Part shown: one piece after another, positions 2,424 to 61,176 of the stretch
Numbering within the stretch: the stretch's first letter is position 1
Layout: each line of letters starts with the position of its first letter
DNA from: an uncultured Saprospiraceae bacterium
GTDB lineage: Bacteria; Bacteroidota; Bacteroidia; Chitinophagales; Saprospiraceae
Direction: 5' to 3'
Length of the DNA: 64,000 nt
NCBI GenBank assembly: GCA_943788055.1
Contig: CALSOU010000002.1
Coordinates: 1 to 64,000 of the forward strand
Translations under genes and position numbers: made by a program
Notes under the pieces: generated by a model
What the model saw: only the letters and a program-made list of their open reading frames with translations
What the model was told of the DNA's origin: nothing
Database searches by the model: none

Positions 2424-3482
2424 CTACCCTTTCTTGGCAAAATATCGTTGTACGTTCAATTCATGAGGAATTTCAACTTTACCTTCGATGTAGTCTACTA
2501 ATTGACTTGAAAAATAGGGAGCTAAGGAGCTTCCTTTGGTACCCATTCCGTTGAAAATATGTAGCTGGGAGTATTCTGGATGGGTACCCAAAACTGGCTT
2601 TCTGTTCTTAGATGAAGGCCGAATTCCAGTTCTTCGATGAATAATCTCAAATGGCACTTTTATCGTTTTTGTCACAAAATCAACCAGTCGATTCTGCATC
2701 TTTTTACTAGTATCTACAGTTAATTCGTTCCACTCTGATGTAGCTCCGCACCAGTATAGATCATTCCCCAAAGGAGTGATGAACATATCCTTCTTATAAG
2801 CTTTAGTTAATTTCAGTGAAGGTGCTTTGACTATCAGAAGCTCTCCTTTCGTAGGCGAAAAAGCCGGAATTTCAAAAAACGGGTTTTTAACAACTCGCCA
2901 TCCCTCTGCAAAGAATATGTGCTTTGCTTCTACTTCTTGGTATCGAATATTGGGTTCAATCGACAGTGCCTCAAAGTCAAACTCTTCTACGGAAATTGAA
3001 TCTAATGTGTCTAAATACGAAATATAATCTCTCTGTAATTCACCTGTCAGAATCCGATAGCAGTTCTTTAATTCACCCATCAACTCAGGCAATTGCAGAC
3101 TCTCTGACGTATCTGCCATATCCGCCTTCTCAAGTAGAAATTGCGACAAATAAGAATCTGCCGTTTTAGCGAGCCAAGTGTTTTCATCAGAAGCTGTTTG
3201 AAAGCTTCTAACTATATGCATTCGATCGATGTAGTTGGATTTCAATAACTGACCCAATTCATTATACCGATCTGCCGCGTACGGCATCACTTCTTCGATC
3301 ATCCAAGACTTCACAAATCTCCTCCCAGTTATTGGATTTATTAAGCCAGCTGCAACGGATGTGCTTTCACCGGGAAGGTTTGCGTGAATATGGTGAACAG
3401 AATAATTACGTTTTTGTAATTCGAAGGACAAATGAATCCCTGCTAGTCCAAGTCCGACAACGATACAATCAACTTTCTTCAT
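2424..3482 (-). CDS. FAD-dependent oxidoreductase, DAO/DadA family
   Basis: Likely oxidises an amine or amino acid using FAD; the substrate cannot be told from sequence. The N-terminus has the Rossmann motif GLGLAG (residues 10-15) for the ADP part of FAD, followed by the family-typical GESTSVAAGLINPITGRR segment. Near the C-terminus are TGIRPSSKNRKPVLG and HIFNGMGTKGSSLAPY, matching the second FAD-contacting segment of DAO enzymes. At 352 residues the length is normal. The start overlaps the end of the upstream MmcQ-like gene by 14 bases, so the two are probably cotranscribed. No signal peptide is seen, which suggests a cytoplasmic enzyme. Confidence 0.85.
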   Translation of the reverse strand: MKKVDCIVVGLGLAGIHLSFELQKRNYSVHHIHANLPGESTSVAAGLINPITGRRFVKSWMIEEVMPYAADRYNELGQLLKSNYIDRMHIVRSFQTASDENTWLAKTADSYLSQFLLEKADMADTSESLQLPELMGELKNCYRILTGELQRDYISYLDTLDSISVEEFDFEALSIEPNIRYQEVEAKHIFFAEGWRVVKNPFFEIPAFSPTKGELLIVKAPSLKLTKAYKKDMFITPLGNDLYWCGATSEWNELTVDTSKKMQNRLVDFVTKTIKVPFEIIHRRTGIRPSSKNRKPVLGTHPEYSQLHIFNGMGTKGSSLAPYFSSQLVDYIEGKVEIPHELNVQRYFAKKG

Positions 3483-3828
3483 GAAGCTTTTCTTTTTGAG
3501 CTTTAGAGAGAGAAGCTACAACAAGTTCATAAGAATGGTTGATCAATTCATAGATCATTTTTTCGGAAAGAAGTCCATCCATCTGGACAGTATTCCAGTG
3601 TTTTTTATTCATATGCCAACCTGATCTAACTTCGCGATAGTCATCTCTTAACAGAATGGCTCGTTCAGGATCGCACTTGAGATTCATAGATAAATCTTCT
3701 TTATCAATATCCATTAATGCATACATCTTCCCTGCCACCTTAAATACCAAAGTAGAGCCGTCGAACGGAAACCCTTCTGTGGTAGCCGGTTTCGCTAAGC
3801 AGTATAACCTTAATTTTTCTACATTCAT
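3469..3828 (-). CDS. MmcQ/YjbR family protein
   Basis: A 119-residue protein of the MmcQ/YjbR fold (a small double-wing DNA-binding-like fold of unsettled function). Family features seen are the N-terminal LRLYCLAKPATTEGFPF, the central VFKVAGKMYALMDI, and the C-terminal HMNKKHWNTVQMDG followed by a helix ending in a basic stretch. It is the first gene of a two-gene unit with the FAD oxidoreductase, which it overlaps. What links the two is not evident. The family call is firm; a DNA-binding role is only inferred from the fold. Confidence 0.85.
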   Translation of the reverse strand: MNVEKLRLYCLAKPATTEGFPFDGSTLVFKVAGKMYALMDIDKEDLSMNLKCDPERAILLRDDYREVRSGWHMNKKHWNTVQMDGLLSEKMIYELINHSYELVVASLSKAQKEKLHEES

Positions 3829-5283: not shown

Positions 5284-6969
5284 CTACCAGAAATATGCGT
5301 ACAAAAATGCTACAATTAAGCATATTAAAATGGCACTGATATTAAAGGTCGACGAAGTTTTGAATATTCCTGAATGAAGATCGATTGCTTTCTCATCATC
5401 CTCCTTGCCTTTTTGGAGTTTACTGATCACAGCAATTATCAACATAGTCAATAAAGCAGTTAATCCCATCTGATGTAAGAATGGAAGATTTGGGAAAATC
5501 GCACTGTCGACCCACCCTTTTGCACCAATTTTAAAGAACATCGCAATCGGAATACTCATAATCACGCCCCATATTGCAGCGCTGTTGGTTGCCTTTCGAT
5601 AGAACAGTCCCATAATAAACACAGCTAAAATTCCCGGCGACACGATACCTGTATATTCTTGGATATACTGAAATACCTGCCCAAGATTTCCAAGCAAAGG
5701 CGCAATGAAAATAGCCATAATAAGTGCAACACCTCCTGTAATCCGTCCAACATTCACTAATCGAGTCTGAGATGCATCTTTGTTAATAAGTGGCTGATAA
5801 ATATCCATGGTGAAGATAGTACTCGTCGAATTGACCATAGAGGCCAAAGAAGAAACTATCGCAGCGGCAAGGGCAGCCAGAACAAGACCTTTAAGCCCAT
5901 CGGAACATACTTACTAATCAACCAAGGTGCGGCATTATCGTTGACAAAATTTCCATCTTTTAGAAACGTTGGATCAACGGAAGCAGCGGTAACTATACCT
6001 GATGTTACGTCTACATTCATGACATATGCGATGATACCTGGCAACACGACAATGATAGGAATAATCAATTTTAAAAAAGCCGCGAAAGCGATACCTTTCT
6101 GTGATTCCTTCAGACTCTTTGCAGCCAAGGTTCTCTGAATAATATATTGGTTAAAACCCCAATAATAAATATTTGCTACCCACATTCCACCAATCAGCAC
6201 CCAAACACCTGGTAAATCCCACCAAGCATCTTTACCGTTTGGCGTCAAAATTTCGCCTTTCTGGAGAATCATACTAAACTTCTCTGGAACAACTTCATAA
6301 ACATGGGCTAAACCAGCAAATACGCCACCTTCAGGTAATACATTGTCAAGCGCTATGATGACGGTAACAAGTCCACCAACTACTAGCAAGACTACTTGGA
6401 TAACGTCTGTCCAGGCAACCGCACTTAATCCACCCCAAAGTGAGTACGCTGCAGCGAACATACTCAAGCCGATAATACTAATCCACATTAATGATTCGTC
6501 ACCATTTCCAATGATGGTATCCATCGCCTTGGCTCCTAGATATAATACAGTAGTCAAATTGACAAAAACAAACAAGGCAATCCAAAAGATTGCAAGAATG
6601 GTTTTTAAGTCTTTACTAAATCTCTTTTCAACAAATTCAGGAATTGTATATAGCCCTTTCTCAATAAAAATCGGTAGAAAGTACTTACCCACGATTAGAA
6701 GTGTAATTGCCGCCATCCATTCATAACTAGCTATGGCTAAGCCGATTGCAAAACCTGATCCTGACATCCCGATGAATTGTTCGGCAGATATATTGGCAGC
6801 TATCAAAGATGCCCCGATTGCCCACCAAGGTAGTGATTTGGAAGCAAGAAAGTAATCTTCGGCGCTTTTAGTCTCACCTTTTTTGGTACGAGACACGTAT
6901 AATCCAATTCCTAGAATTAGTACAAGCATATGCAGCAAAAATGATGTAGTCTAGTGTTGAGAAATTCAT
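5284..6969 (-). pseudogene. Sodium:solute symporter (SSS family), two frameshifts
   Basis: Na+-coupled transporter of the SGLT/SSS family with about 13-14 hydrophobic segments. Reading continuously, the protein begins at ATG 6969 (MNFSTLDYIIFAAY, a typical family N-terminus), changes frame near 6928-6932, runs through KSAEDYFLASKSLPWWAIG, ISAEQFIGMSGSGFAIG and ANIYYWGFNQYIIQR, and changes frame again near 5888-5892. There, one missing G turns the expected GLKGLVLAALAAAIVSSLA into a premature stop. The 3' part (5284-5847) then gives the remaining transmembrane helices. Total length would be about 560 residues, normal for the family. With two independent indels the gene is probably dead; indel sequencing errors are the alternative. 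The WGFNQYIIQR stretch resembles sugar (vSGLT-like) transporters. Confidence 0.85.
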
Positions 6970-7041
6970 TAGTTGTTAAGTTTAATTGGAAGTAAGGAAG
7001 TTCGATAATCTGTTACAAAAAAGCTTTAATTAGATGGTAAA

Positions 7042-7644
7042 CTAGTACTTATGTTTCCCAACTTCCCAGTCGCTTTTCTTCGTAAGATACTTTTCTCCGC
7101 TCCCTACAGCAGGTTCTTCTAGCATTGTACCCATTGAATCATTCCATCTGTTGAGATATCCAAACAATGCAATTACCCCCATGATTTCTACGATCTCGCC
7201 TGAATCCCAATGCTTTCGCATTTCCTCTGATATTTCATCATTGACTTCATTTGGTACTCGTGATGCTGCAATCGTAAGATCAAATGCTGCCCTTTCGGCA
7301 TCTGTAAAAGCTGGATGAGTCTTGTACTCCCAAATATTATGCATCTGCTCTTCATGGGCACCATAGCGCTCCGCAGCGCGTATTGCATGCGCTTCGCAAT
7401 AACGGCAACCGGTTGTCATGCTCGATAGATATGCAACTAAACGCTTTAGAGCACTAGTTACGCGGCCTTTATTCTCCATCACAGACTGATTCATTTCTAA
7501 AAATGCGTTCGATATTCTCGGACGATGCATCATGGTAAACAAACTATTTGGGGTGAATCCCAAAGTCTCTTCGTAAAAATTGATCATTTCTTGCAATTCT
7601 GGATTGGAATCACGGTCTACTGGAGAAACTAACGGTTGCTTCAT
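7042..7644 (-). CDS. AhpD-like / carboxymuconolactone decarboxylase family protein
   Basis: A 200-residue all-helical protein of the peroxidase-related AhpD-like group. The active-site motif is GCRYCEAH (Cys80, Cys83, His86), matching the redox CxxC-His arrangement of AhpD. The N-terminus (YEETLGFTPNSLFTMMHRP) and the later FNLAIAAS-like segment (residues 116-124) also fit the family. It probably acts in peroxide or thiol redox chemistry in the cytoplasm, but its partner is unknown. It stands alone between the broken symporter and the insertion sequence. Confidence 0.8.
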   Translation of the reverse strand: MKQPLVSPVDRDSNPELQEMINFYEETLGFTPNSLFTMMHRPRISNAFLEMNQSVMENKGRVTSALKRLVAYLSSMTTGCRYCEAHAIRAAERYGAHEEQMHNIWEYKTHPAFTDAERAAFDLTIAASRVPNEVNDEISEEMRKHWDSGEIVEIMGVIALFGYLNRWNDSMGTMLEEPAVGSGEKYLTKKSDWEVGKHKY

Positions 7645-7827
7645 TTATTTGATTTGTTTTGCTTTCGTATTGGTTGTTCAATGTGAAAATCACTACACAC
7701 AGAGACATTGCTTCTATAGCCAAAATCTCTCGCTCACATATTTACAAAATTAAATGTGAACAGACACTAAATCTTTATTGATTAATATCTTTTGCTTGCT
7801 TTGGCATTGAAGATACATTGTGCAAAT

Positions 7828-7869
7828 AAAAAAAGAGCTGACTATCACAAAATGATAATAATCGACTCT
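7828..7869 (-). terminator. Possible terminator originally belonging to the hpd transcript
   Basis: On the minus strand an imperfect hairpin (AGAG and TATCA arms closing on TTTTG) is followed by seven T. It lies just outside the left end of the IS element. Before the IS inserted it would have followed hpd by about 65 bases. The stem is weak, so confidence is low. Confidence 0.35.
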
Positions 7870-7876
7870 CATTATT

Positions 7877-7900
7877 TATGTACCGTCCTAAAATAGTATT
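7877..7900 (+). repeat. Left inverted repeat of the IS3-like element
   Basis: TGTACCGTCCTAAAATAG and the following six bases match the reverse complement of 9243-9266 at 18 of 24 positions. It is preceded directly by the TTA target copy. Confidence 0.8.
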
Positions 7901-7922
7901 ACGGGTATAGATATAAAATTAA

Positions 7923-8828
7923 TCAATTAACCGCTAGAGGATCTAGATCCTCTAGTAGTTTTCTTTTGTACGTTTTAATGACCACTTCTGATTGATTATG
8001 CATAAATGAAGGTGTATGCATTTCATAGGACAAGTGCAGTCTTTCGTTATTGTAGATTTGGATACTTTGGCTCACTAGTTTTCTCATTAATGCTATGTCC
8101 TTCACTTTGATACCTAAAACAAATTCTTGCTTTAGTATTCCATTAATCCCTTCTGCTACTGCATTCTCATACGGATCGTATTGCTCGGTCATACTGCAAT
8201 TAATGTGATGTCTACTCTAATAACTCTTGATAGGCATCACTAAAATATTGTAAACCTCTGTCCGAGTGATGTATCAATGATATTGCTCTATATCATCTAC
8301 TTTTAATTGCTTGACTCAATGCGCGTATTGAACCAGATACCGATAGGCTCTCTGACACATCGTATCCTACTATCTTTTTTGAATGCGCATCCGTTACTAA
8401 TGCTAAATACGGTGGTGTCGCTCAACCTCCTATAGAAGTAATATCGCTTACCCATACTTGTTCTGGTCGCGCAACCTCCATATTTGAGATTAGGTTACTG
8501 TGTTTTCTGTAGCGATGGTGCGAGTTAGTTGTAATTCGATACTACTGCTTTCGATTGACTATCAGATGATTAGCACGTAAAATATCAAATAACTTAGTCC
8601 TGCCAACTTTTAATTCTCGTAACTCTGACTCTATTTTGTGGTATAACTTCTTCCCACTAATTCGAGGCATTCGCATCCGAACTGCTTTAACCAATTCGAC
8701 AACTTTCTCTGCTCTTTATTGACAAGATGTATAGTGTCTCTTTAATCTATGATATACCTGACGATTATACCCGAACAAGCTACAGGTGTCTGTAATACTC
8801 ATTTCTTGTTCTTTTTTGAAGCGTTTGA
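7923..8828 (-). pseudogene. IS3 orfB transposase (DDE integrase), degraded
   Basis: The C-terminal part is open at 7923-8192 and shows YENAVAEGINGILKQEF and IQIYNNERLHLSYEM, typical of the end of an IS3 transposase; the Glu of NAVAEG-type motifs belongs to the DDE triad. Upstream, the minus strand still gives SLIHHSDRGLQYFSDAYQ, which carries the second catalytic Asp, and SKKIVGYDVSESLSVSGS. These pieces lie in different frames with in-frame stops between them, for example just after SDAYQELLE. The gene cannot make a full transposase. Confidence 0.88.
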
Positions 8829-31987: not shown

Positions 31988-32006
31988 CGGCAAAATTGTA
32001 AGAAGT

Positions 32007-33785
32007 ATGGAATCTATCCGCAATATCGCTATTATAGCACACGTTGACCACGGTAAAACAACGCTAGTTGACAAAATCATTCAAGAGTGTCAATTAATTG
32101 ATGAACGGAATCAAACTGGTGAATTAATCCTTGACAATAATGATCTTGAGCGAGAAAGAGGGATCACTATTCTATCTAAGAATGTAGCAGTTCAGTACGA
32201 GGGTGTCAAAATTAACATTCTAGACACACCAGGTCACGCCGACTTCGGAGGTGAAGTTGAACGTGTATTGAAAATGGCTGACGGAGTACTCTTGCTAGTT
32301 GATGCTTTTGAAGGGCCAATGCCTCAGACACGTTTCGTACTTGGAAAAGCTATAGAGTTGGGATTGAAACCAATTGTTGTTGTAAATAAAGTGGATAAAG
32401 AAAACTGTAAGCCAGAGGATGTACAAGGCGACGTTTTTGACTTGATGTTCAATCTAGATGCAAGTGAAGATCAACTCGACTTCGTTACAATTTACGGGTC
32501 ATCAAAGCAAAACTGGATGAGCTATGATCACAATCAAAGAACAACAAATATCCGTCCTCTTCTAGACGCAGTTGTCCAGCATATTCCTGAGGCTCCATAC
32601 AATGAAGGTACAGTACAGATGCAGATTACCTCTTTAGATTTCTCTAAATTTCAAGGTAGAATTGCAATTGGAAGACTTTTACGTGGAGATTTAAAAGTAG
32701 GTCAAGACTATACCCTTTGCCAAGCTGATAATAAATTCAAGAAAATTAGGATTAAGGAGTTGTTCCTATTTGAGGGGTTAGGTAGAGTATCTGTTCAAGA
32801 CGTAAGAAGTGGAGATCTATGTGCTGTTGTAGGAATTGAAGATTTCGAAATTGGAGATACGATCGCAGATCTTGAGAATCCAGAGTCATTACAGCGAATT
32901 GCTGTAGATGAACCAACAATGAGTATGTTGTTCACAATTAATAACAGTCCTTTCTTTGGAAAGGAAGGTAAATTTGTAACAAGTAGGCACTTAAGAGAAC
33001 GTCTTTTCAAAGAAACTGAAAAGAATCTTGCATTACGCGTCGAAGAAACTGATACAGAGGATAAGTTTAACGTTTTTGGTAGAGGTATTCTACACTTATC
33101 TGTACTTATTGAAACAATGAGAAGAGAGCAATATGAACTTCAAGTGGGAAAACCTGAAGTACTATTCAAAGAAGTGGACGGCATAAAGTGTGAACCTATT
33201 GAGGCTTTAGTCATTGATGTACCTGAAGATTATTCTGGAAAAGTAATAGAATTAGTAACTCAACGTAAAGGAATGTTGAGCGTAATGGAACCAAAAGGAG
33301 ATGTGCAACATCTTGAATTTGATATCCCTTCAAGAGGTCTTATTGGATTAAGAAACAATATACTTACTACTTCTGCAGGTACTGCTGTCATGACGCATCG
33401 TTTCTCAAAGTACGAACCATTTAAAGGTGACATACCTTCTAGGAATAAAGGATCATTAGTATCAATGGAGCAAGGTCAAGCTTTGGCATATGCGCTAGAT
33501 CGTCTTCAAGATCGAGGCAAGTTCTTTATTGAGCCTGGTGATATAGTTTATAAAGGACAGGTGATTGGAGAGCATACAAGAGAAAATGATATTGAGCTCA
33601 ACGTTATAAAAGGTAAAAAGTTAAGTAACATGCGTTCATCTGGAAATGATGATAGCGCCAAACTTGCACCGAAAATTGAATTTTCTTTGGAAGAGTCTAT
33701 GGAATATATCAGAGACGATGAATATTTGGAGGTTACTCCTGCCAATCTTAGAATGAGAAAGATTGATCTAAAGAAAAAGCTTTAG
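32007..33785 (+). CDS. typA: Ribosome-associated GTPase TypA/BipA
   Basis: Translational GTPase that binds 70S ribosomes and helps growth under stress. The GTPase motifs are AHVDHGKTTLVDKI (G1), GITILSKN (G2), DTPGHADFGGEVERVL (G3) and NKVDKE (G4). Domains II, III and the TypA-specific C-terminal domain follow, with ERERGITI, PSRGLIGLRNNILT and the final ANLRMRKIDLKK tail. At 592 residues the length is normal. It has its own promoter box and is followed after 17 bases by a dehydrogenase gene with a separate promoter box. Confidence 0.97.
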   Translation: MESIRNIAIIAHVDHGKTTLVDKIIQECQLIDERNQTGELILDNNDLERERGITILSKNVAVQYEGVKINILDTPGHADFGGEVERVLKMADGVLLLVDAFEGPMPQTRFVLGKAIELGLKPIVVVNKVDKENCKPEDVQGDVFDLMFNLDASEDQLDFVTIYGSSKQNWMSYDHNQRTTNIRPLLDAVVQHIPEAPYNEGTVQMQITSLDFSKFQGRIAIGRLLRGDLKVGQDYTLCQADNKFKKIRIKELFLFEGLGRVSVQDVRSGDLCAVVGIEDFEIGDTIADLENPESLQRIAVDEPTMSMLFTINNSPFFGKEGKFVTSRHLRERLFKETEKNLALRVEETDTEDKFNVFGRGILHLSVLIETMRREQYELQVGKPEVLFKEVDGIKCEPIEALVIDVPEDYSGKVIELVTQRKGMLSVMEPKGDVQHLEFDIPSRGLIGLRNNILTTSAGTAVMTHRFSKYEPFKGDIPSRNKGSLVSMEQGQALAYALDRLQDRGKFFIEPGDIVYKGQVIGEHTRENDIELNVIKGKKLSNMRSSGNDDSAKLAPKIEFSLEESMEYIRDDEYLEVTPANLRMRKIDLKKKL

Positions 33786-42548: not shown

Positions 42549-45500
42549 ATGATTTTACATTTTACTAAAGAGTCGATATTTTCAGCAATGATTCTACTAC
42601 TCTCCTTTATGTCTTTGTCTGCCCAAAATAATAAATCTGATAGCAAAGTTGACAGCGATTGCGTTGGGAGATTTAGCGAGCCTGGAAGTATCAGATTGGT
42701 CTCAATGGAATCAAACGAGGTATATCAATTACGCTTCCAACATGAAATCAAAATTGAAAATAATTATAATCATTTCCCGGAAGGTGGAGTGAAATCATAC
42801 TGGTTTGAAAATAACTTACTACATTTTATACCTCTACAAAAAAATGTATACTTTCACTACCCTGCCTCAAGCTGCAACGCATCGATAGTGCAGAAAAATC
42901 TATTTCAACTTAAAAATACAAGCCCTAAAAAGTCAAATTCAATCATTCCCATAACGGGGGAAACACCTCAATTTCTAGTTGAAAATGTTTTACTAGGTGA
43001 CTTTTGTCTAAATATTTCAAATGTATCTGCACCAGCAGGTGGAAACTCGATCGGTCAATTTTTTGGTGGGCAAGGTAGTATTAATGTTGAAACTGGTATT
43101 ATGTTAGTGAACGGTGACATCAATCAAGCTGTTGGGCCAAACAATAGTACTGGAACGTCAAGTACTACAGCAGCAAATCTCTCCGACCCAGATATTGAAG
43201 CCATTTCAGGATCAGTATCAAGAGACGCTTCGATCTTGGAGTTTGACTTTGTACCCGATCAAGACTCTATCAAGTTCGACTATGTTTTTGCTTCCGAAGA
43301 ATATTGTGAATATGTAGGCGGCTTTAATGACGCATTTGGTTTCTTTCTCAGTGGACCTGGAATAAATGGTCCTTACACTGATGGAGCTGAAAATATTGCG
43401 ATTCTTCCAGATAATGTGACACCTGTGTCCATTAATACGGTAAATTTTGGATTAAATGGTCAATACTATGAAAGTAACGCAGTTCCACCGGGGACTCAAG
43501 GTGATCCTGACTGTGATCCCAATCCGACTGGCAAGTTCAATCAATTTATCGAATACGATGGCTTTACAACTGTTTTGGAGGCGAAAGCTGCTGTGCAAGC
43601 CTGTGAGACTTATCATATAAAAATTGTAGTCGCTGATGCTCTAGATCAGATTTTTGACTCAGCTGTTTTTCTTGGTTCAAATTCCTTTATTTCTGGAGAT
43701 CCCGGTTTACGACTGACTACGGAAGTTGGATACACAAATCCTACAGAAGAGACTGCAACAGAAGGCTGCTCTGGGGCTTATATATCATTTGTTAAGTTCG
43801 GTGGAACTTTCGAAAATATGGAATTCACAATTAATATCGATAATACAAGTACAGCTACTGAAGGAGTTGATTATGCCGATTTACCAAGCACTTTCACAAT
43901 ACCGCCAGGAGTTACGGTTGATACTTTATGGCTTGATATATTTAATGATGATATAGAAGAAGGTGTAGAAACAATTGATATTACAATTGGAGGATTATGT
44001 GATTGCTTAGACCCCGTTCTTCAAATTCAAATAGATGATCCAGAGCCTCTCGTTATTGACCCTATTGATGACATAGGAGTTTGCAGTCCAGAAGTTTTTC
44101 AAATCCCTGCAATTGCAAGCGGGGGTACAGCTCCATATACATATAGTTGGTCGAACGGATCTAGTGATGCAACTGCTGTTGTTTTCGTCAACCAGTCTGG
44201 CTTCTACGATGTAACTGTCACTGATGAATGTGGGCAAGAAGAAACTGCCGAGTTCTATGCAGAAATCTACCCAAATTACGAAGAGAGTCAGACTGTTGAA
44301 ATCTGTGAAGGAGATTCCTATTTTGTGGGAGGTGCTCCGCAATCGACAACTGGCAACTATGTCGATCTGTATCCAACTGTATTTGGTTGTGATAGCATAA
44401 TCACTACGTCCCTAATTGTTAAACCAAAGGCATACTACGATACTTTAGTTTATAGTTGTGTAAGTGAACCAGTGGTGATAAATGGAACCACGCTTAACTT
44501 TCCAGGTGTATTTGACATTCCACTTTTTGGAGCTGCAGCCAATGGGTGCGATAGCATTGTTAATGTTGAAGTTGTGTGGCTAAACCCCATATCCTCTATT
44601 GACGATCCCGACTTACTAACTTGCGATGTTGACTCCGTGCAATTATCAATAATAGTTCCAAACGAAGGAGATGGATTTGAATATTTTTGGACAGGTCCAA
44701 ATAGTTTTGAATCATCAGAGGAATCTCCATGGGCATTTGATGCTGGTACTTATACGCTAACTGTAACGCAAACTATAAACGGTGTTTTTTGTGAATCTGT
44801 TTTCCCTTTCAGTAATGAAGTTGAAATTGATACTTTAGCTCCAATCATTGACAGTATTCCAGACGTGACAATTTCATGCGGTCTTTCTGAGGTTACAATC
44901 GATGCGTCAATTGTAAATCTACAGGATCTCTCAGAGATAGAAGTCGAATGGAGTGGACCAAATGGTTTTTTAAGTGATCAACTTACCATAACGGTAAGTG
45001 ACAGCGGAGCATATGTTCTCAACGTTTTAAACCCATTGACAGGTTGTTCTTCTTTTGAAGCAGTAGATGTTTCAATTGACAATATTGAACCAACTGTTAA
45101 TTCTACTGGAGGTTCTATTGGCTGTAGCGCTGATTCTATTCAAATTTATGCTGAGGTCAACTTGTTAAATGGAAGTTTTTCATGGACTGGACCAAATGGT
45201 TTTTTAGCTGATAGTCAAAACCCATTTGTTTACGAATCAGGGACGTATATTGTCGAGTACAACCTAACTAATCAATGCATTGCGTATGACACAGTTTTGG
45301 TGATCAATGACAACACTGTTCCTGACATCTCAACAACTCCGGACACCGTTTTTTGTGGTCAAGGAATCGGAGAATTAATAGCATTCTCCATGACACCTAA
45401 CGTCATTTACAGTTGGGAAGGTCCAAATGGTTTTGTTGCGAATAGTGCTACTATCGACGTGACTGAAGAAGGTATCTACACCGTCAGTATCACAGGAGAA

Positions 45501-48197
45501 AATGGGTGCCTTGTCAGCGAAGATGTTGAATTTTTGTTGATAGATGTTTTTCCAACTGCCACGACTGCTTTGGATACAATTGATTGCGGTGAGGACTTCA
45601 TAACGCTGCCACTCAGCACCTCTGATTCTGACCTAAGTTTCGCTTGGACAGGTCCGTCAAATTTTTCTTCTACGGATCAGAATCCAACGACTAATATCCC
45701 CGGAGAATACCAAGTTATTATCACGACGGATTTGGGCTGTAGCAGCACTCTATCAACAACTATCAGTGCCGACACTCTAATTCCGCAAGTAACGGTAGTG
45801 GCCCCAACTATTACTTGTGACAACCCTTTACCTGCTATTGAAGTGTCAGACATCAATGAAGTCCTTGATTTTTCTTGGATAGGCCCAAATGGATTTAATT
45901 CGACACAGGAATCTCCAATCGTTGATCAACCAGGACAATACGAGCTAACAATTAGTAGCCTCAATGGATGTGACAATAGCTACAATTTAACAATTCCAAT
46001 CGATACACTTAGTCCTTCGTTTACAGCCACAGGAGACACAATTGATTGCATCAATGGTAGTGCTTTCGTTAGCTCCGACCTTAGTGGTGGACAGTATGAA
46101 GTACTGTGGACTGATGAAAACAACAACACCGTCGGATTGAATTTTGACGAAGAAGTCAGCGTTGCCGGTCTTTACACAATCGTAGCTAGTTTTAAGGATA
46201 ATGGTTGTTCAACAACTAGAATAGTTGAAGTATTCAAAAATGACGATGTTCCTGATATTTCTATTTTAGGAGATACCCTTAATTGCCTTTCAATGGGTGG
46301 ATTAATATCGTCAGACTCTCAAACTCCGGGAGTAACTTATTCTTGGACAGGACCTAATGGCTTCAGCTCGTCTAGTAATAGTACAAGCGTAAATGAAGGA
46401 GGTCTTTACAATCTAACTATTACTGCTCCTAATGGGTGTATAGCAACAGCTTCAACTACAGTTGTTGAAGACCAAGACGACCCAGATATTTCCATTGATC
46501 CTCTCACTCTAGACTGCTATACAACTAGTTCAAGCATTTCGATTAATACAACTGGGCAAGGCAATCAGTATTCATGGATCGGGCCGAATGGTTTTTCAAG
46601 TAATCTTCAGTCTCCGACAATAAATGAAAATGGAATGTATGAGGTTACAGTAACTTCAGAAAACGGTTGTTCATCAGTCGAGTCAATCTTGGTAAATGGA
46701 GATTTTGTGCAACCAACAGCGTTGATTTCCACTCCTGATGTTATCGACTGTAATAATCCAAGTGTGGATATCGACCTTTCATCAAATGCACCTATAGGCA
46801 GTACTTTTAGTTGGACAGGTCCAAATTCATTTAGCTCAGATGAGAAGGATTTGTCTGTAGATCAACCTGGATTGTATTCAGTTATAGTTACGGGAACAAA
46901 TGGCTGTACAAATTTGGCAACTACAACTATTGATATAGATATCGAGCCTATTCAATTAACTACTGAAGACGACTTCATAGACTGTGATAAGCCATCAGTT
47001 GAGCTATCAATAACATACTCAAATAATCAAATATTTGATCTACAATGGGACGGTCCGAATAATTTCACGTCAGTTCAGTTAAAACCAACTATAGATCAAG
47101 GTGGAACTTACACACTTCAAGTAGTAGGTCTAAATGGATGCACTTCAAACACTAGCATATTCATAGAAGATAGAATTGAGTATCCGAATTTCAGCTTGAG
47201 CGGTAATGACCTAAGCTGTGAGGAGGAAGTAAGTAATATATTTGCTACGATTGCTAGTGGAGACTTCAGCTTTGCTTGGGAAGATGCGCAAGATATGTCA
47301 ATTGGAACTAACTCTGACAACATACAAGTCAATGAAGAAGGCTATTACTATACAACAATTACAGACAATTCAAATGGTTGTAGTACTATTGATTCAATAG
47401 AAATATTTCAGCTACCAGAGTTAAACTCATTCGAATTTGAATCTGAAAACCCAAATTGCTTTGTGAACTACGGAACTATAGACTTTACGGATGTTCAAGG
47501 TGGGACCGAACCGTATGAATATTCCATCAATGGTGGTTCTAATTTTTCCTTAGAACCATTCTTTGATGAAGTTGAAGCTGGTAATTATGATCTAATGGTA
47601 ATTGACGCCAATGGGTGTGAACTACTTGACGACGCGACGATTATTGGACTTGAGGAATTTGATATTTCGTCTGAAGAACTTTATACAATAGTATTAGGAA
47701 ATAACCAACAACTAGAAGTTCAAACGTCCATTCCACAGGCAGATATCCAAAATATTACATGGGTGCCTGAAGATTTTCTGTCGTGTACCAACTGTCTTAA
47801 TCCGATTTCAAATCCAAATTCTGATATTGTCTATCTAGTCATATTAACTGACAAGAACGGTTGTGAACTTCAGACTGAAATTGAAATCCGGGTAGTAGAT
47901 AACCCTATTTATGTACCTAATATCTTTACGCCAAACAATGATGGTATAAATGAAGAGTTTACAATATTGGGAGATTTATCCACGATTGAAACAATCAACA
48001 CCTTCTCAATATATGATCGGTGGGGTGAACAAGTTTTCTTGCGAGAGAATATTGACCCTAGTCAGGATGAAATAACTTGGGACGGTCGATGTAAAGACCA
48101 AACCGTAAAAGTTGGAGTCTATGCATACTACCTTGAATACGTCTCGATTCGTGGTGAATTAGAGCAACTTGTCGGTAATATTACCGTAGTTCGTTAA
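42549..48197 (+). CDS. Giant T9SS-secreted repeat protein, adhesin-like, with gliding-type C-terminus
   Basis: A surface or secreted protein of 1882 residues. A signal peptide (FSAMILLLSFMSLSAQ) is followed by a choice-of-anchor L domain (about 150-385; FDYVFASEEYCEYVGGFNDA), a Calx-beta-like domain (about 390-500; WLDIFNDDIEEGVETIDI), a PKD-like module (about 515-570; GGTAPYTYSWSNGSSDA) and, from about 690 to 1610, about 12 Ig-like modules of roughly 80 residues. Ten carry a W-x-G-P-x-x-F core, such as SWTGPNGFSS, and most end near NGC. A SprB-like repeat (about 1630-1700; GGTEPYEYSINGGSNF) precedes the C-terminal gliding-type domain (VYVPNIFTPNNDGINEEF to GNITVVR), a type B T9SS signal. It is probably an adhesin. 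Confidence 0.9.
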   Translation: MILHFTKESIFSAMILLLSFMSLSAQNNKSDSKVDSDCVGRFSEPGSIRLVSMESNEVYQLRFQHEIKIENNYNHFPEGGVKSYWFENNLLHFIPLQKNVYFHYPASSCNASIVQKNLFQLKNTSPKKSNSIIPITGETPQFLVENVLLGDFCLNISNVSAPAGGNSIGQFFGGQGSINVETGIMLVNGDINQAVGPNNSTGTSSTTAANLSDPDIEAISGSVSRDASILEFDFVPDQDSIKFDYVFASEEYCEYVGGFNDAFGFFLSGPGINGPYTDGAENIAILPDNVTPVSINTVNFGLNGQYYESNAVPPGTQGDPDCDPNPTGKFNQFIEYDGFTTVLEAKAAVQACETYHIKIVVADALDQIFDSAVFLGSNSFISGDPGLRLTTEVGYTNPTEETATEGCSGAYISFVKFGGTFENMEFTINIDNTSTATEGVDYADLPSTFTIPPGVTVDTLWLDIFNDDIEEGVETIDITIGGLCDCLDPVLQIQIDDPEPLVIDPIDDIGVCSPEVFQIPAIASGGTAPYTYSWSNGSSDATAVVFVNQSGFYDVTVTDECGQEETAEFYAEIYPNYEESQTVEICEGDSYFVGGAPQSTTGNYVDLYPTVFGCDSIITTSLIVKPKAYYDTLVYSCVSEPVVINGTTLNFPGVFDIPLFGAAANGCDSIVNVEVVWLNPISSIDDPDLLTCDVDSVQLSIIVPNEGDGFEYFWTGPNSFESSEESPWAFDAGTYTLTVTQTINGVFCESVFPFSNEVEIDTLAPIIDSIPDVTISCGLSEVTIDASIVNLQDLSEIEVEWSGPNGFLSDQLTITVSDSGAYVLNVLNPLTGCSSFEAVDVSIDNIEPTVNSTGGSIGCSADSIQIYAEVNLLNGSFSWTGPNGFLADSQNPFVYESGTYIVEYNLTNQCIAYDTVLVINDNTVPDISTTPDTVFCGQGIGELIAFSMTPNVIYSWEGPNGFVANSATIDVTEEGIYTVSITGENGCLVSEDVEFLLIDVFPTATTALDTIDCGEDFITLPLSTSDSDLSFAWTGPSNFSSTDQNPTTNIPGEYQVIITTDLGCSSTLSTTISADTLIPQVTVVAPTITCDNPLPAIEVSDINEVLDFSWIGPNGFNSTQESPIVDQPGQYELTISSLNGCDNSYNLTIPIDTLSPSFTATGDTIDCINGSAFVSSDLSGGQYEVLWTDENNNTVGLNFDEEVSVAGLYTIVASFKDNGCSTTRIVEVFKNDDVPDISILGDTLNCLSMGGLISSDSQTPGVTYSWTGPNGFSSSSNSTSVNEGGLYNLTITAPNGCIATASTTVVEDQDDPDISIDPLTLDCYTTSSSISINTTGQGNQYSWIGPNGFSSNLQSPTINENGMYEVTVTSENGCSSVESILVNGDFVQPTALISTPDVIDCNNPSVDIDLSSNAPIGSTFSWTGPNSFSSDEKDLSVDQPGLYSVIVTGTNGCTNLATTTIDIDIEPIQLTTEDDFIDCDKPSVELSITYSNNQIFDLQWDGPNNFTSVQLKPTIDQGGTYTLQVVGLNGCTSNTSIFIEDRIEYPNFSLSGNDLSCEEEVSNIFATIASGDFSFAWEDAQDMSIGTNSDNIQVNEEGYYYTTITDNSNGCSTIDSIEIFQLPELNSFEFESENPNCFVNYGTIDFTDVQGGTEPYEYSINGGSNFSLEPFFDEVEAGNYDLMVIDANGCELLDDATIIGLEEFDISSEELYTIVLGNNQQLEVQTSIPQADIQNITWVPEDFLSCTNCLNPISNPNSDIVYLVILTDKNGCELQTEIEIRVVDNPIYVPNIFTPNNDGINEEFTILGDLSTIETINTFSIYDRWGEQVFLRENIDPSQDEITWDGRCKDQTVKVGVYAYYLEYVSIRGELEQLVGNITVVR

Positions 48198-55766: not shown

Positions 55767-56735
55767 TTATTCAATAATGACCTCATAATATTTGATCGCA
55801 GAACCACCCCATATTCCGATACCTCCTTCAATATTTGACTTTGCTCGCGAATATGAGGCAAATGGCCCCTGATTTGCTCTAGCAAACTCGATCGTGTTCC
55901 AAAAGTCAAAATGATCCTCATCGAGTAATTGCCATTCTAATCTCGCAGTATCTGACACTTCAAATAAACCAGCTGTATTCGGGTCAATTTCCATTGTGAA
56001 ATCAACGGGTTTTGGTACAGGAAAGTCAAAAGCCTTTCCGTCGAAGAAAACATCATCAGTTACGCTGCTGAAGTCCGCTGCAAAAGGTGATCCGTCTACA
56101 CTAACTCTCAGACGATAGAAATTGGGACCAAGTGGATCTGTAAAGAAGGCATTCATAGACCGAAAATTTGGAATCCCCAGTTGATCAAGTACTTTCAAAC
56201 TGTCAATAGGAACAAAAGTTGGAATCGTCGTACTAGCTGTAATCTCTTCACCCTCAAAAACGACTCTCAAATCGTAGCTTTCGCCTTCCGACGGGACAAT
56301 CGATTGATTTACATCAATATAAAAGCATAGATCTTGCTCCAAGAAAAGACTATCTAGTCCGATAAGATCTAGCGTCTGTTCAGCTAATACTGGATCCAAA
56401 TTTGCTGTACAGATCTCAGTTAGAGGGTAAATTTGGCCATTATGTATGACTGTTACAAAGGCTCCTCCTAGAAACAATTCAGGTCCTTGTATTTCATCCC
56501 CTGTTTGGAATAATGGATAAGTCTTCCCTATTGTTACATAAGGTGGTATTGCATCTTCCCCTGCTTGAATGTAACCTTCAATGACAACTGTCGGAGGGTC
56601 GTCAGCATAATCCGGCACAAACACTTCTTGGCAAGAACCTAGAAAGATCACTACTATCAGAAGTAGGGACAAATTTTTGATCTTCGAAACAGCCTTAGGT
56701 ATTGAGGTCATCTTTACTTCGTTTTTTGTCTCCAT
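55767..56735 (-). CDS. DUF4249 lipoprotein, partner of a TonB-dependent receptor
   Basis: A 322-residue lipoprotein (signal LSLLLIVVIFLGSC, lipid Cys35). Its beginning (TVVIEGYIQAGEDAIPPYVTIGKTYPLF) is the usual DUF4249 pattern, followed by a beta-rich body with YDLRVVFEGEEITASTTIP. It is thought to sit at the outer face of the outer membrane beside the receptor. The annotated start overlaps the receptor stop by 22 bases; ATG at 56711 (MTSIPKAV) is a good alternative with no overlap. The two genes are one operon. Confidence 0.9.
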   Translation of the reverse strand: METKNEVKMTSIPKAVSKIKNLSLLLIVVIFLGSCQEVFVPDYADDPPTVVIEGYIQAGEDAIPPYVTIGKTYPLFQTGDEIQGPELFLGGAFVTVIHNGQIYPLTEICTANLDPVLAEQTLDLIGLDSLFLEQDLCFYIDVNQSIVPSEGESYDLRVVFEGEEITASTTIPTFVPIDSLKVLDQLGIPNFRSMNAFFTDPLGPNFYRLRVSVDGSPFAADFSSVTDDVFFDGKAFDFPVPKPVDFTMEIDPNTAGLFEVSDTARLEWQLLDEDHFDFWNTIEFARANQGPFASYSRAKSNIEGGIGIWGGSAIKYYEVIIE

Positions 56736-59026
56736 TTGTAATTATATGTGATACTAGGGATCAGTGGAAATATTGTAATCTTAAAAGACTCTAATTGCGG
56801 AGCAGTTGGCAGACTATTCGGTGCTTCCTCAAAAAATGTAAAGAATGGATTCTTGCGATTGTAAATATTGTATATTCCGAATGACCATGAGCCCGAAAAT
56901 CGTTTGTCAGAATTAGGTTTAGGAGTATAGGTTACCGAAAGGTCCGCTCTATGATAATCAGGCAGCCTCGCACTATTTCTCGGACCATAAAAGAAATTGA
57001 GCGAATTTTCAAGAAAGAATAAGCCAGAAAGTGGCGTGTAAGATTGTCCTGATCCATATATAAATACACCTGAACACTCCCATTTAGGTGAAATGGCATA
57101 ATTCATTACAACCGATAGATCGTGAGGTCGGTCATACACTGCAGGATACCAGCGGCCATCTTCTATATCATTAAAAGAACGTTCTGACCTTGAAAGCGTA
57201 TAACCAATCCATCCGTTAAAGTCACCTTTTGCTTTCTTGAGAAAGAACTCGATTCCATAAGCCCTTCCTATTCCCGAAATAAACTTAAGTTCTTCATCGG
57301 CACCCAGCTCATTTACTGATGTTTCCGAATAGTCTAATTGATTCTGTAAATCTTTGTAATAAACCTCTATAGAAGTTTCATACATATTGTCTCGGAAGTT
57401 TTTAAAGTATCCTATCGCATATTGAAGTCCAATCTGTGGTTTCACTCGCTCTGTGCTAGGAGACCACACATCTGTGGGTAAGGTTGAACTAGAATTACTA
57501 ACCAAGTGAATGTACTGATTAGTTCTTGTTACTCCAAGCTTCACTGATTGACTTTTTCCAAAACTATATTTTCCAGAAAATCTTGGTTCTAAACCAGTAT
57601 AAGTAATTACAGGATCCCATCGATCATATACTGTTCCATCAATATTACTCGTGTAAGGTCCTATCTGAGTAAATGTAGAGAATCTAACCCCGTAGTCGAT
57701 GCTCAGTCTAGAGTTGATCTTCCATTCATCTTTTGCGTAGATTGCATTTTCGATGGCATACTTCGGGTTTTGGTCTGTTTCAAAATCAACATCTCCGCTT
57801 GTCGCTGATGCGGTGTTTGGTACTAGTTCGTGGTATGTGGAATTAATTCCAACTTTGATCAAGTGATCTGGATTAGGAAAATAGTCAAAGTCAACTTTCG
57901 CACCATAGTCACGAACACCACTGAACAACTTAAAAGAAAACTGATCTTGACCACCATCAAACTCAAATTGGTAGTCATTATAGATACCTGTAACATTCAT
58001 AAACAGCTTATTTGAAAATAAATGATTCCATCTTGCTGTTAATGTACTATTGCCATATGGTAAATCAAATACAAAATCTCTAGCTGGTTGAGAAAAATTA
58101 AGAACATCTCGTCCAAAGTAACCGCTCAAGAAAAGTCGATTGTTCTTATTGACTTTATAGTTGATCTTGGTATTTAAGTCATAAAAAAAGTAGTTAGTTC
58201 CTTCAAAATTACCTCCTTCCAAAAAAGGCTGAATTAAGTCACCCACGTAAGTGCGTCTTGCACTTGCTATAAATGAGATTTTATCCTTTAGAATTGGCCC
58301 TTGCACTGTAAATCTAGAAGAAATAAGTCCGATACCACCTTCAGCTTCTAAGAACTTGTTATTTCCTTCTTTCATTTGTACATCAACAACCGATGATAGT
58401 CTACCACCATAATTCGCAGGCATACCTCCTTTAATAAGTGTTGTGTTTTTGATTGCATCAGCATTAAAAACGGAGAAAAAGCCCAATAAATGGCCACTAT
58501 TGTATACTAAGGCTTCATCTAATAAAACTAGATTCTGGTCCGGTCCTCCTCCTCGAACGTAAAATCCCGCATTTCCTTCTCCTGAAGACATAACACCGGG
58601 AAGTAACTGAATCGATTTTAGAACATCAACCTCGCCCATAAGTGCGGGTAGCTTTTTGATTTCCTCTACTGGTAACTCCAAGGTGCCCATCTGAGTGGAC
58701 TCGAAATTTTTCTTCTCATCTTCCTTTTCGGCTGAAACGATGACTTCATCCATGAAAACTCCATCGTTAAGCTCAACATCTAACTCTACATCTTCATCTA
58801 GGTTTATTTCGAAACTCTGGGGTTTAAACCCTAGATATGCGTAGGTAACTTTGTACGTGCCTTTTGGAAGAGACAGGGAATAAAATCCATATGCGTTTGT
58901 TGCAGTACCAGTTCCTTGATCACTTGAAAGAAACACTGTCGCCCCGATTAAAGTCTCACCGTTTGTTTGGTCTTTTACATAACCTGACAAGGTATAGTTA
59001 TGAGCAATTAAGGCAAACTGCATCAA
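56714..59026 (-). CDS. TonB-dependent outer-membrane receptor
   Basis: Outer-membrane transporter of 770 residues. It opens with a CarboxypepD-regulatory-like domain (about 10-95; YTLSGYVKDQTNGETLIGAT), then a plug domain (about 130-240; LLPGVMSSGEGNAGFYVRGG and NADAIKNTTLIKGGMPANYG) and a beta-barrel of about 500 residues. The receptor probably imports a siderophore or peptide-like solute; its partner is the DUF4249 lipoprotein. The best signal peptide reads upstream of the ATG (IKQLLPTAVFVLM), but no start codon is found there because a 63-bp repeat begins at that point. Present starts (TTG 59026, ATG 59023) leave a shortened signal, so export may be impaired. Confidence 0.88.
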   Translation of the reverse strand: MMQFALIAHNYTLSGYVKDQTNGETLIGATVFLSSDQGTGTATNAYGFYSLSLPKGTYKVTYAYLGFKPQSFEINLDEDVELDVELNDGVFMDEVIVSAEKEDEKKNFESTQMGTLELPVEEIKKLPALMGEVDVLKSIQLLPGVMSSGEGNAGFYVRGGGPDQNLVLLDEALVYNSGHLLGFFSVFNADAIKNTTLIKGGMPANYGGRLSSVVDVQMKEGNNKFLEAEGGIGLISSRFTVQGPILKDKISFIASARRTYVGDLIQPFLEGGNFEGTNYFFYDLNTKINYKVNKNNRLFLSGYFGRDVLNFSQPARDFVFDLPYGNSTLTARWNHLFSNKLFMNVTGIYNDYQFEFDGGQDQFSFKLFSGVRDYGAKVDFDYFPNPDHLIKVGINSTYHELVPNTASATSGDVDFETDQNPKYAIENAIYAKDEWKINSRLSIDYGVRFSTFTQIGPYTSNIDGTVYDRWDPVITYTGLEPRFSGKYSFGKSQSVKLGVTRTNQYIHLVSNSSSTLPTDVWSPSTERVKPQIGLQYAIGYFKNFRDNMYETSIEVYYKDLQNQLDYSETSVNELGADEELKFISGIGRAYGIEFFLKKAKGDFNGWIGYTLSRSERSFNDIEDGRWYPAVYDRPHDLSVVMNYAISPKWECSGVFIYGSGQSYTPLSGLFFLENSLNFFYGPRNSARLPDYHRADLSVTYTPKPNSDKRFSGSWSFGIYNIYNRKNPFFTFFEEAPNSLPTAPQLESFKITIFPLIPSITYNYKWRQKTK

Positions 59027-59050
59027 TACAAAAACTGCTGTGGGTAGTAA

Positions 59051-59113
59051 CTGTTTGATAAATTCTTGATTTTAGAAAGTAACGGATAAACAAGCAAATT
59101 GATGCAAAGAATG
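59051..59113 (+). repeat. 63-bp direct repeat, copy 1
   Basis: 57 of 63 positions match the sequence at 60244-60306 in the same orientation. It includes AAGTAACGGATAAA and AAGCAAATTGATGCAA. It directly abuts the 5' end of the TonB-dependent receptor gene. Confidence 0.85.
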
Positions 59114-59121
59114 CTGAAAAA

Positions 59122-59400
59122 ATGAAAATAATTGAAGGTGGTGAATCTATTGCTAACTTAGAAGTATATCCTAACCCATCTAATGATGTATTTAACATTA
59201 GCTTTACTTCTGAATCAATACAAGATTTAAGAGTTAGAGTACTAAGTATTGTTGGAGAAGAATTAATAGTTGAAGACTTGCAACAGTTCATTGGTGAATA
59301 CACCAAGAAAGTATCTCTAAATAAAAATGCTAAAGGAATCTACTTCTTAGAAATAGAAACTAAGGATGGTGTAATTAATAAGAAACTTATTTTACAATAA
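59122..59400 (+). CDS. Orphan T9SS type A sorting domain
   Basis: A 92-residue product starting MKIIEGGESIANLEVYPNPS and ending YFLEIETKDGVINKKLILQ, which is a complete type A T9SS C-terminal domain and nothing else. There is no signal peptide and no passenger. Such a domain cannot be secreted alone, so it is probably the 3' end of a larger gene that was cut, with the cut near the 63-bp repeat eight bases upstream. The frame stays open for 14 codons before the ATG and then meets a TAA inside the repeat. It is more AT-rich than its neighbours. Confidence 0.7.
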   Translation: MKIIEGGESIANLEVYPNPSNDVFNISFTSESIQDLRVRVLSIVGEELIVEDLQQFIGEYTKKVSLNKNAKGIYFLEIETKDGVINKKLILQ

Positions 59401-59477
59401 ATACAATTATGTGCTAAAAAGATTGTTTAAGTATTTTGAAATTAGTACCTTCATGCTCAATCAAAAAAATTAAAAGA

Positions 59478-59981
59478 ATGAAAAATTTAATATTATTATC
59501 ACTTATTGTAGTCTTTTCTGCTTGTAATCAATCAGATAATTTAGATTTATACAAGACAAATGTTGCAATTGCTAAAAAAGCAATATCTTGCTATGAAACA
59601 CCTTCAGATTTTGAGACATTTAAGTCTTTAGTTCATGAAGATGTTGTACATCAATCACCTATGTACGGTCAAGGACAAGTTGACTATGAAGGTGTTTTAG
59701 GTCAAGCAAAATTTTATATGGGAGGTTTTACTAATGTAAAATTTACTGACGCTGTTTGGTTGCCTGGTGTAGATACTGTAAATCTTCAGAATAATGGAAG
59801 CGTAAGAGTTTATGGAACTTGGTCAGGTGAAAGTATTGAGACAGGAAATTCATTCTCTGTAGATTCTTATCATTACTTTGATATTGATGGCGGTAAAATA
59901 GTTAGTTCTGGTGACTTCTTTGATGCTACCGGAATGGTAATGGCTGTTTCTGCTCCAGCACCATCTGAGACTGAACAATAG
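59478..59981 (+). CDS. SnoaL-like (NTF2-fold) lipoprotein
   Basis: A 167-residue protein from ATG 59478 with a lipoprotein signal (NLILLSLIVVFSAC). The mature part follows the SnoaL/NTF2-like pattern: a helix with ETFKSLVHEDVVHQSPMYGQ, then strands with FTDAVWLPGVDTV, SVRVYGTWSGES and SYHYFDIDGGKIVSSGDFFDATG. Members include polyketide cyclases and many uncharacterised stress proteins; no function is assigned here. An upstream in-frame frame opens at 59436, but the signal fits the later ATG. It lies in the AT-rich, repeat-bracketed cassette and has its own terminator. Confidence 0.85.
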   Translation: MKNLILLSLIVVFSACNQSDNLDLYKTNVAIAKKAISCYETPSDFETFKSLVHEDVVHQSPMYGQGQVDYEGVLGQAKFYMGGFTNVKFTDAVWLPGVDTVNLQNNGSVRVYGTWSGESIETGNSFSVDSYHYFDIDGGKIVSSGDFFDATGMVMAVSAPAPSETEQ

Positions 59982-59999
59982 TAATTTTCACTTTAACTT

Positions 60000-60038
60000 A
60001 ATAGCCTTGATTAAAAAAAATCAAGGCTATTTTTTTTA
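60000..60038 (+). terminator. Terminator of the SnoaL-like gene
   Basis: AATAGCCTTGATT pairs with AATCAAGGCTATT around an A-rich loop, followed by eight T. It lies 19 bases past the gene. Confidence 0.9.
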
Positions 60039-60070
60039 GATCTGCGTGTAATTTTAATAACTGCATAAAA

Positions 60071-60310
60071 TCAAAAATAGAAATTATTGCATTTCCTAAT
60101 ATAAATAATAGTTCTTGCTAAATCTATTTCATTTGTAATTTGACTACTAGTATCATTAATGTTAGCTTGGATCTGATATCTGTAAACTAGAGAATCTCTT
60201 TTAAGAGTTAAAATTTTACCAGACTTTACATTAAACAAAGAATCTTTTTGATAAAGTCGTGATTTAAGAAAGTAACGGATAAAGAAGCAAATTGATGCAA
60301 GGAATGACAA
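60071..60310 (-). CDS. Small possible protein carrying the repeat-encoded segment
   Basis: A 79-codon frame read on the minus strand begins with a hydrophobic segment encoded by the 63-bp repeat (LASICFFIRYFLKSRLYQ). Copy 1 of the repeat, read in the same frame, gives ASICLFIRYFLKSRIYQ, where differences are synonymous or conservative. This hints that the repeat may once have been coding in this direction. The rest of the frame (VKSGKILTLKRDSLVYRYQI) shows no known domain. It may be a real small membrane protein or chance. Confidence 0.3.
   Translation of the reverse strand: MSFLASICFFIRYFLKSRLYQKDSLFNVKSGKILTLKRDSLVYRYQIQANINDTSSQITNEIDLARTIIYIRKCNNFYF
60244..60306 (+). repeat. 63-bp direct repeat, copy 2
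   Basis: The second copy of the repeat at 59051-59113 (57 of 63 positions match). It lies 60 bases from the end of the TraB/GumN gene and closes the AT-rich cassette. Confidence 0.85.
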
Positions 60311-60366
60311 AAAATTAAAAAATAGAGTGGATCAAAATAGATTTAAAATCAGTACAACTCTCACTA

Positions 60367-61176
60367 CTAACGTAAATCAAGCTTGACTGGAGACAGTCTA
60401 TAACCCTTTTTGTTGAGGAGGTGTAGCAGTCCATTTTTGCCAGATAGATGTGCCGCCCCAACTGCAGCAAATACGCTCTTAGTGGTTGATAACTGCGTAA
60501 AATTTGCTGCCATTTTATGGTTTCTACTGTATAGTAGTGCATCCTTAATACTACCAATTGATTTTTTAGATAATTTATAAAGCTTATGAATTTCTTGGTT
60601 TTGATACAAATCAAGTAGTTGGAGCGTCTTTGATCGAAACTTAGAAACATTGGACAAAGCGGAGCCTAAGGAACGGAGTTGATAATCAAGCGAAATCTGA
60701 TTAAGGGTCTGAATATGATCATCCATTGACTCCATAGATGAGAGTTCTCTTTCTACAGATTCTGCATAGGACCATAATTGAAAATCCATCGTATTCACTG
60801 GATTATCGGCTTTAGTTGATAAGGCTTGCTGAGTCATATAATTCAGTAAAAATAACGGCAACATCTTATCGAATAACTCAAGATTTAGACCAAATGACTT
60901 TCTTAGAAATGCTTTATACTTGTCATACTTTCTATCTGACAGTAAAGCACTAAGCTTAAAGTCATTTGGAAGGTGAACATGCGCTCCCATTCTGCGCTGT
61001 GCATCAGAATGCAGAAGTATTTCGGGTGCAAAAACATCACATTGATCTATAGCTTCCTTCAAGCGTCCAAAATCAGAAAAGGCTACACCTATTGGAACGT
61101 GCATCGTTCCGAAGATATAACCTTTAAAAATATTTTTAGAATGAATCTCCCAGAGGAGTGCATTTCTACTAGACAT
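60367..61176 (-). CDS. TraB/GumN family protein
   Basis: A 269-residue protein of the TraB/GumN (Tiki-like protease) family. It starts with LLWEIHSKNIFKGYIFGTMHVP, where GTMH is the first conserved motif, followed by DQCDVFAPEILL with the conserved Glu, and ends with KSVFAAVGAAHLSGKNGLLHL, the GAxHLxGxxGLL motif. These residues bind metal in Tiki metalloproteases. No signal peptide is seen, though many family members are secreted. The start overlaps the Lrp regulator gene by eight bases, so the two are cotranscribed. Confidence 0.87.
   Translation of the reverse strand: MSSRNALLWEIHSKNIFKGYIFGTMHVPIGVAFSDFGRLKEAIDQCDVFAPEILLHSDAQRRMGAHVHLPNDFKLSALLSDRKYDKYKAFLRKSFGLNLELFDKMLPLFLLNYMTQQALSTKADNPVNTMDFQLWSYAESVERELSSMESMDDHIQTLNQISLDYQLRSLGSALSNVSKFRSKTLQLLDLYQNQEIHKLYKLSKKSIGSIKDALLYSRNHKMAANFTQLSTTKSVFAAVGAAHLSGKNGLLHLLNKKGYRLSPVKLDLR

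Follow-up and report, generated by a model that had tools for sequence, protein, structure and literature searches.

The window, by which we mean the whole 64-kb stretch of DNA analysed here, contains a short AT-rich segment lying between a gene for a TonB-dependent receptor and a gene of the TraB/PrgY/gumN family and bracketed by two direct repeats (Table 1). The first-pass annotation of this DNA had noticed two plus-strand open reading frames, one with a T9SS domain and one for a SnoaL-like protein, among minus-strand neighbours, together with a raised AT content over the bracketed 1.1 kb and the absence of any integrase or transposase, and we agree with it on all of these points. The GC content of the interior is 0.29 compared to 0.38 for the window. 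Its reading frames are the tail of a T9SS protein (a match to Por_Secre_tail with E 3e-15), the SnoaL-like lipoprotein and a third gene fragment that had been overlooked, the tail of a lipoprotein gene on the minus strand. The SnoaL gene is still open and is the only intact cargo; the two fragments that flank it are scrap. Its protein has no sequence relative in the PDB at E 0.01. The minus-strand reading frame that runs on through the second repeat copy (79 codons, 60071-60310) consists of the lipoprotein tail plus repeat and is a chance fusion, which could nevertheless receive an annotation as a hypothetical protein.

Table 1. Features in and around the insert, with positions in the window.
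Feature	Position	Strand	Remarks
TonB-dependent receptor gene (recipient), left neighbour	56714..59026	-	adjoins the TraB gene in relatives
Left repeat copy	59051..59128		87% identical to 60244-60320; just upstream of the TonB-receptor gene
Foreign insert, ~1.12 kb	59130..60252	+	92% DNA identity to L042 (NYTT01000064.1) 2566-3666
3' fragment with T9SS C-terminal sorting domain, ~88 codons	59131..59400	+	tail of a donor gene with 944 codons or more
Complete SnoaL-like (NTF2 fold family) lipoprotein gene, 167 aa	59478..59981	+	lipobox FSAC; SnoaL_2, E 6e-6
Intrinsic-terminator-like hairpin 3' of SnoaL, 13-bp arms	60000..60031	+	inverted repeat; counterpart at L042 3438-3468
3' fragment of a 209-aa donor lipoprotein gene, ~57 codons	60071..60249	-	L042 3491-4120, minus strand
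Right repeat copy	60244..60320		second of two genomic copies
TraB/PrgY/gumN family gene (recipient), right neighbour	60367..61176	-	adjoins the TonB receptor in relatives

The repeats are as the first-pass annotation had described them: 57 of 63 positions match between 59051-59113 and 60244-60306, so that the copies differ by 9.5%. The alignment can be extended to 78 columns at 87% identity, and the copies start 1193 bp apart. The pair scores 93.3 bits, while the best score over 60 shuffles of the region was 35.6, and it is the top-scoring repeat of the entire window (the runner-up has 43.7 bits). A search for further copies, which had been advised, was run over the 3.0-Mb genome; it returned these two, with all remaining matches at chance level. 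The suggestion that the repeat might be part of a duplicated coding sequence is not supported: it is located upstream of the TonB-receptor gene, and in its best frame four of the six changed codons alter the amino acid. Elsewhere in the window, weaker direct repeats (31-53 bp, 77-90% identity) are clustered at 44677-46605.

The origin of the insert became apparent when the genomes of GTDB species were scanned with the SnoaL protein. A contig of the metagenome-assembled genome (MAG) Flavobacteriales bacterium CPC60, which we call L042, encodes a protein with 96% amino-acid identity to it. The DNA match covers the insert at 92% identity and ends with it on both sides; the L042 genes continue intact beyond both junctions. 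There, a repetitive protein with a length of 944 aa or more ends in the T9SS sorting domain, and the minus-strand frame turns out to be the C-terminal part of a 209-aa lipoprotein. Since the window versions of both genes break off at the edges of the insert, the transfer went from an L042-like genome into the genome of the window. The UvrA encoded on the L042 contig has its best matches in other orders of the class (70-71% identity, versus 59% to the UvrA of the window genome), which places the contig outside the order of the window. Judged by these comparisons, the insert is of foreign origin and comes from a different order, and the terminator-like hairpin is, by its counterpart in L042, inherited from the donor. 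No other L042 sequence of high identity occurs in the window genome, and a larger transfer from that contig was rejected on this ground. When 395 genomes of the phylum were searched at DNA level, only short matches at chance level turned up besides the genome itself.

The first-pass annotation had suggested looking for empty sites and had named conservation of the same arrangement in all relatives, with no empty site, as the observation that would speak against integration. Instead, the two flanking genes are direct neighbours, with no insert, in five relatives: the congeners G002 and G003 and the other family members G020, G033 and G015. The gap between the matched ends of the two genes is about 115-230 bp in these five, in contrast to about 1.37 kb in the window. 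The first repeat copy can be aligned to the region upstream of the TonB-receptor gene of G002 (shuffle p 0.006), as can the second (p 0.04), and CTTTTTGATA is common to the second copy and G002. In G003, the other of the two congeners tested, likeness of the repeat to the upstream region is undetectable (p 0.68). The repeat was not found in the flanks of the donor locus, which are unrelated to it. Because it is absent there and resembles the empty site of G002, duplicated recipient DNA is the simplest reading: the repeat probably represents target sequence, about 80 bp of which stands on either side of the insert. The proposal of an integrated cassette is partly right. Integration is upheld by the foreign homologue at 92% identity and by the five empty sites. 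The cassette is not, given that the segment is cut off within a donor gene at either end, that the repeats lie outside the donor sequence and have no extra copies in the genome, and that they show no attC-like fold.

In a tree of SnoaL proteins the window is sister to L042 (support 97/94) within a clade of five members (99/99), in a family made up mainly of Flavobacteriales and Cytophagales-type MAGs. The protein is rare among close kin: with the window genome counted, 4 genomes out of 199 in the family and 9 out of 398 in the order have it. The three parts of the insert have diverged from L042 to different extents: dN 0.015 and dS 0.068 for the intact SnoaL gene, dN 0.11 and dS 0.38 for the lipoprotein fragment, which is preceded by a spacer with several gaps, and dN 0.010 and dS 0.28 for the T9SS fragment, where the changes are almost all synonymous. 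The low dN of the T9SS fragment suggests a short residence, and the larger difference between the repeats could mean that they predate the insert or evolve faster; the numbers behind both suggestions are small.

What might have happened? The explanation that we hold to be very probable is that illegitimate recombination captured a short piece of foreign DNA in a single, isolated event and duplicated about 80 bp of target as it did so. The donor would be a marine Flavobacteriales relative of CPC60 and the recipient an ancestor of the window bacterium, a member of the Chitinophagales. A chromosomal fragment of about 1.12 kb would have entered this ancestor, presumably as naked DNA, and integrated between the genes for the TonB receptor and the TraB/gumN protein. 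The target, a stretch upstream of the former gene and presumably single-copy until then, would have been duplicated so that direct repeats came to bracket the insert. Joining would have been RecA-independent and perhaps assisted by microhomology. It may have occurred by a template switch, in which the nascent strand copies the fragment and returns about 80 bases behind its point of departure, or by the fill-in of a staggered break. Either of these we infer, as distinct from the foreign origin itself, which the donor match demonstrates. Donor and recipient lack extended homology where they are joined; the longest shared runs are 5 and 4 nt, a weak microhomology that is not significant in DNA this AT-rich (background p 0.08 and 0.28). 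Ku-dependent end joining was rejected as no match to Ku (PF02735) was found in the genome, which is 97% complete, while the B. subtilis control was positive. The genome encodes a homologue of ComEC, though proteins of this type are widespread and are not proof of competence.

The capture has competitors. The region of 80 bp upstream of the TonB gene might have been duplicated in tandem first and the foreign fragment inserted between the copies later. The 9.5% divergence of the copies is above what one would expect from the T9SS fragment, where amino-acid changes are nearly absent; on small numbers, this is in tension with a single old event and leaves room for a prior tandem duplication. However, the tandem pair is seen in no relative, and both ends of the insert are only a few bases away from the edges of the repeats, which is what a single event producing both would give. 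We consider the two-step history unlikely. An artefact of assembly, with Flavobacteriales sequence misjoined into the draft genome, deserves mention because the genome is a draft of 13 contigs with an insert that matches another organism's contig at 92% identity. Yet both junctions are on one contig, the two repeats are not identical and match neither flank of the donor, the insert is 8% diverged from L042, and nothing else nearly identical to L042 is in the genome. We attach very little credence to it.

Direct repeats on both sides of a short, AT-rich stretch that holds a single intact gene, at a place where an empty site exists, would also be left by a mobile cassette or small element that integrates site-specifically, the repeats being its attachment sites. 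Here the donor locus is largely decisive against such an element, since the insert begins and terminates within two donor genes. The repeat is, moreover, missing from the donor flanks and from the rest of the genome, and its copies have no stronger fold than shuffles do (z +0.3 to +0.6). These same properties, no attC-type fold and no further cassettes or sites beyond the two copies, led us to reject an integron gene cassette. Carriage of the SnoaL gene by a phage or plasmid was likewise rejected: it has no match in collections of phages, plasmids and viral contigs, and its protein was assigned to no PHROG. An insertion sequence or transposon was discarded, there being no transposase, no long inverted repeats at the ends and no reading frame without another assignment. 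We regard site-specific integration as very improbable, and the event looks like accidental gene transfer rather than the work of a mobile element.

Illegitimate integration of foreign DNA during transformation is an established process, and the 2008 work of Hulter and Wackernagel, as cited in PMC13344027 and PMC8116780, is reportedly a source for it. The capture proposed here is similar: a short foreign segment is joined to the chromosome in the absence of a mobile element and of extended recipient homology at the joints, and a ComEC-type gene is present. The duplication of about 80 bp of target may set the locus apart from that process. Breakpoints of horizontal transfer in gut metagenomes, studied with LocalHGT, show microhomology, and non-homologous and alternative end joining (NHEJ and alt-EJ) were named as the main mechanisms (PMC11317153). 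The window resembles these breakpoints in the transfer between species and in the short or absent microhomology at the joints; it differs in the absence of a Ku match and in the duplication of target on both sides of the insert. As with the target-site duplications of transposition, foreign DNA is flanked by direct repeats of target DNA. Unlike them, the repeats are about 80 bp long, there are neither terminal inverted repeats nor a transposase, and the insert ends inside unrelated genes.

In our judgement the locus records a real and ordinary, if unusually readable, transfer of a DNA fragment between orders, and not a cassette system. It is a natural example of gene gain across orders without a mobile element in which donor, empty site and both joints are all legible. 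An AT-rich gene between direct repeats, then, is not necessarily a cassette, and a long duplication flanking an insert is a signature that could be used to count similar events in other genomes. A more speculative suggestion, which we think quite unlikely, is that capture of foreign fragments in these marine Bacteroidota follows a recurrent pathway that duplicates target stretches of tens of bases. If correct, such a pathway would leave cassette-like scars with direct repeats and no element-encoded enzyme.

Some further observations can be mentioned. A second genome of the same order, Chitinophagales BS30m-G25 (L043, 458-1080), carries a SnoaL gene 80% identical to that of the window, and 3' of the SnoaL terminator it has a short stretch like the end of a T9SS tail (KKLILQ followed by a stop); this is possibly another lateral fragment. 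The SnoaL match of the same-order genome G269 has the same coordinates as that of L043 (461-955), in keeping with a place of the window in the Chitinophagales. In two Flavobacteriales (L044 and L045, about 6000-8390) SnoaL adjoins a gene whose DNA is about 70% identical to window 32006-33764; it is probably a conserved housekeeping gene that stands there by coincidence. Finally, the reading frame of the TonB receptor (56714-59071, minus strand) has no ATG, GTG or TTG start far enough upstream to take in what is probably the complete signal peptide (IKQLLPTAVFVLMQFALIA). Its first listed start is a TTG at 59026; by eye, the receptor genes of the congeners apparently start with TTG in G002 and with GTG in G003.
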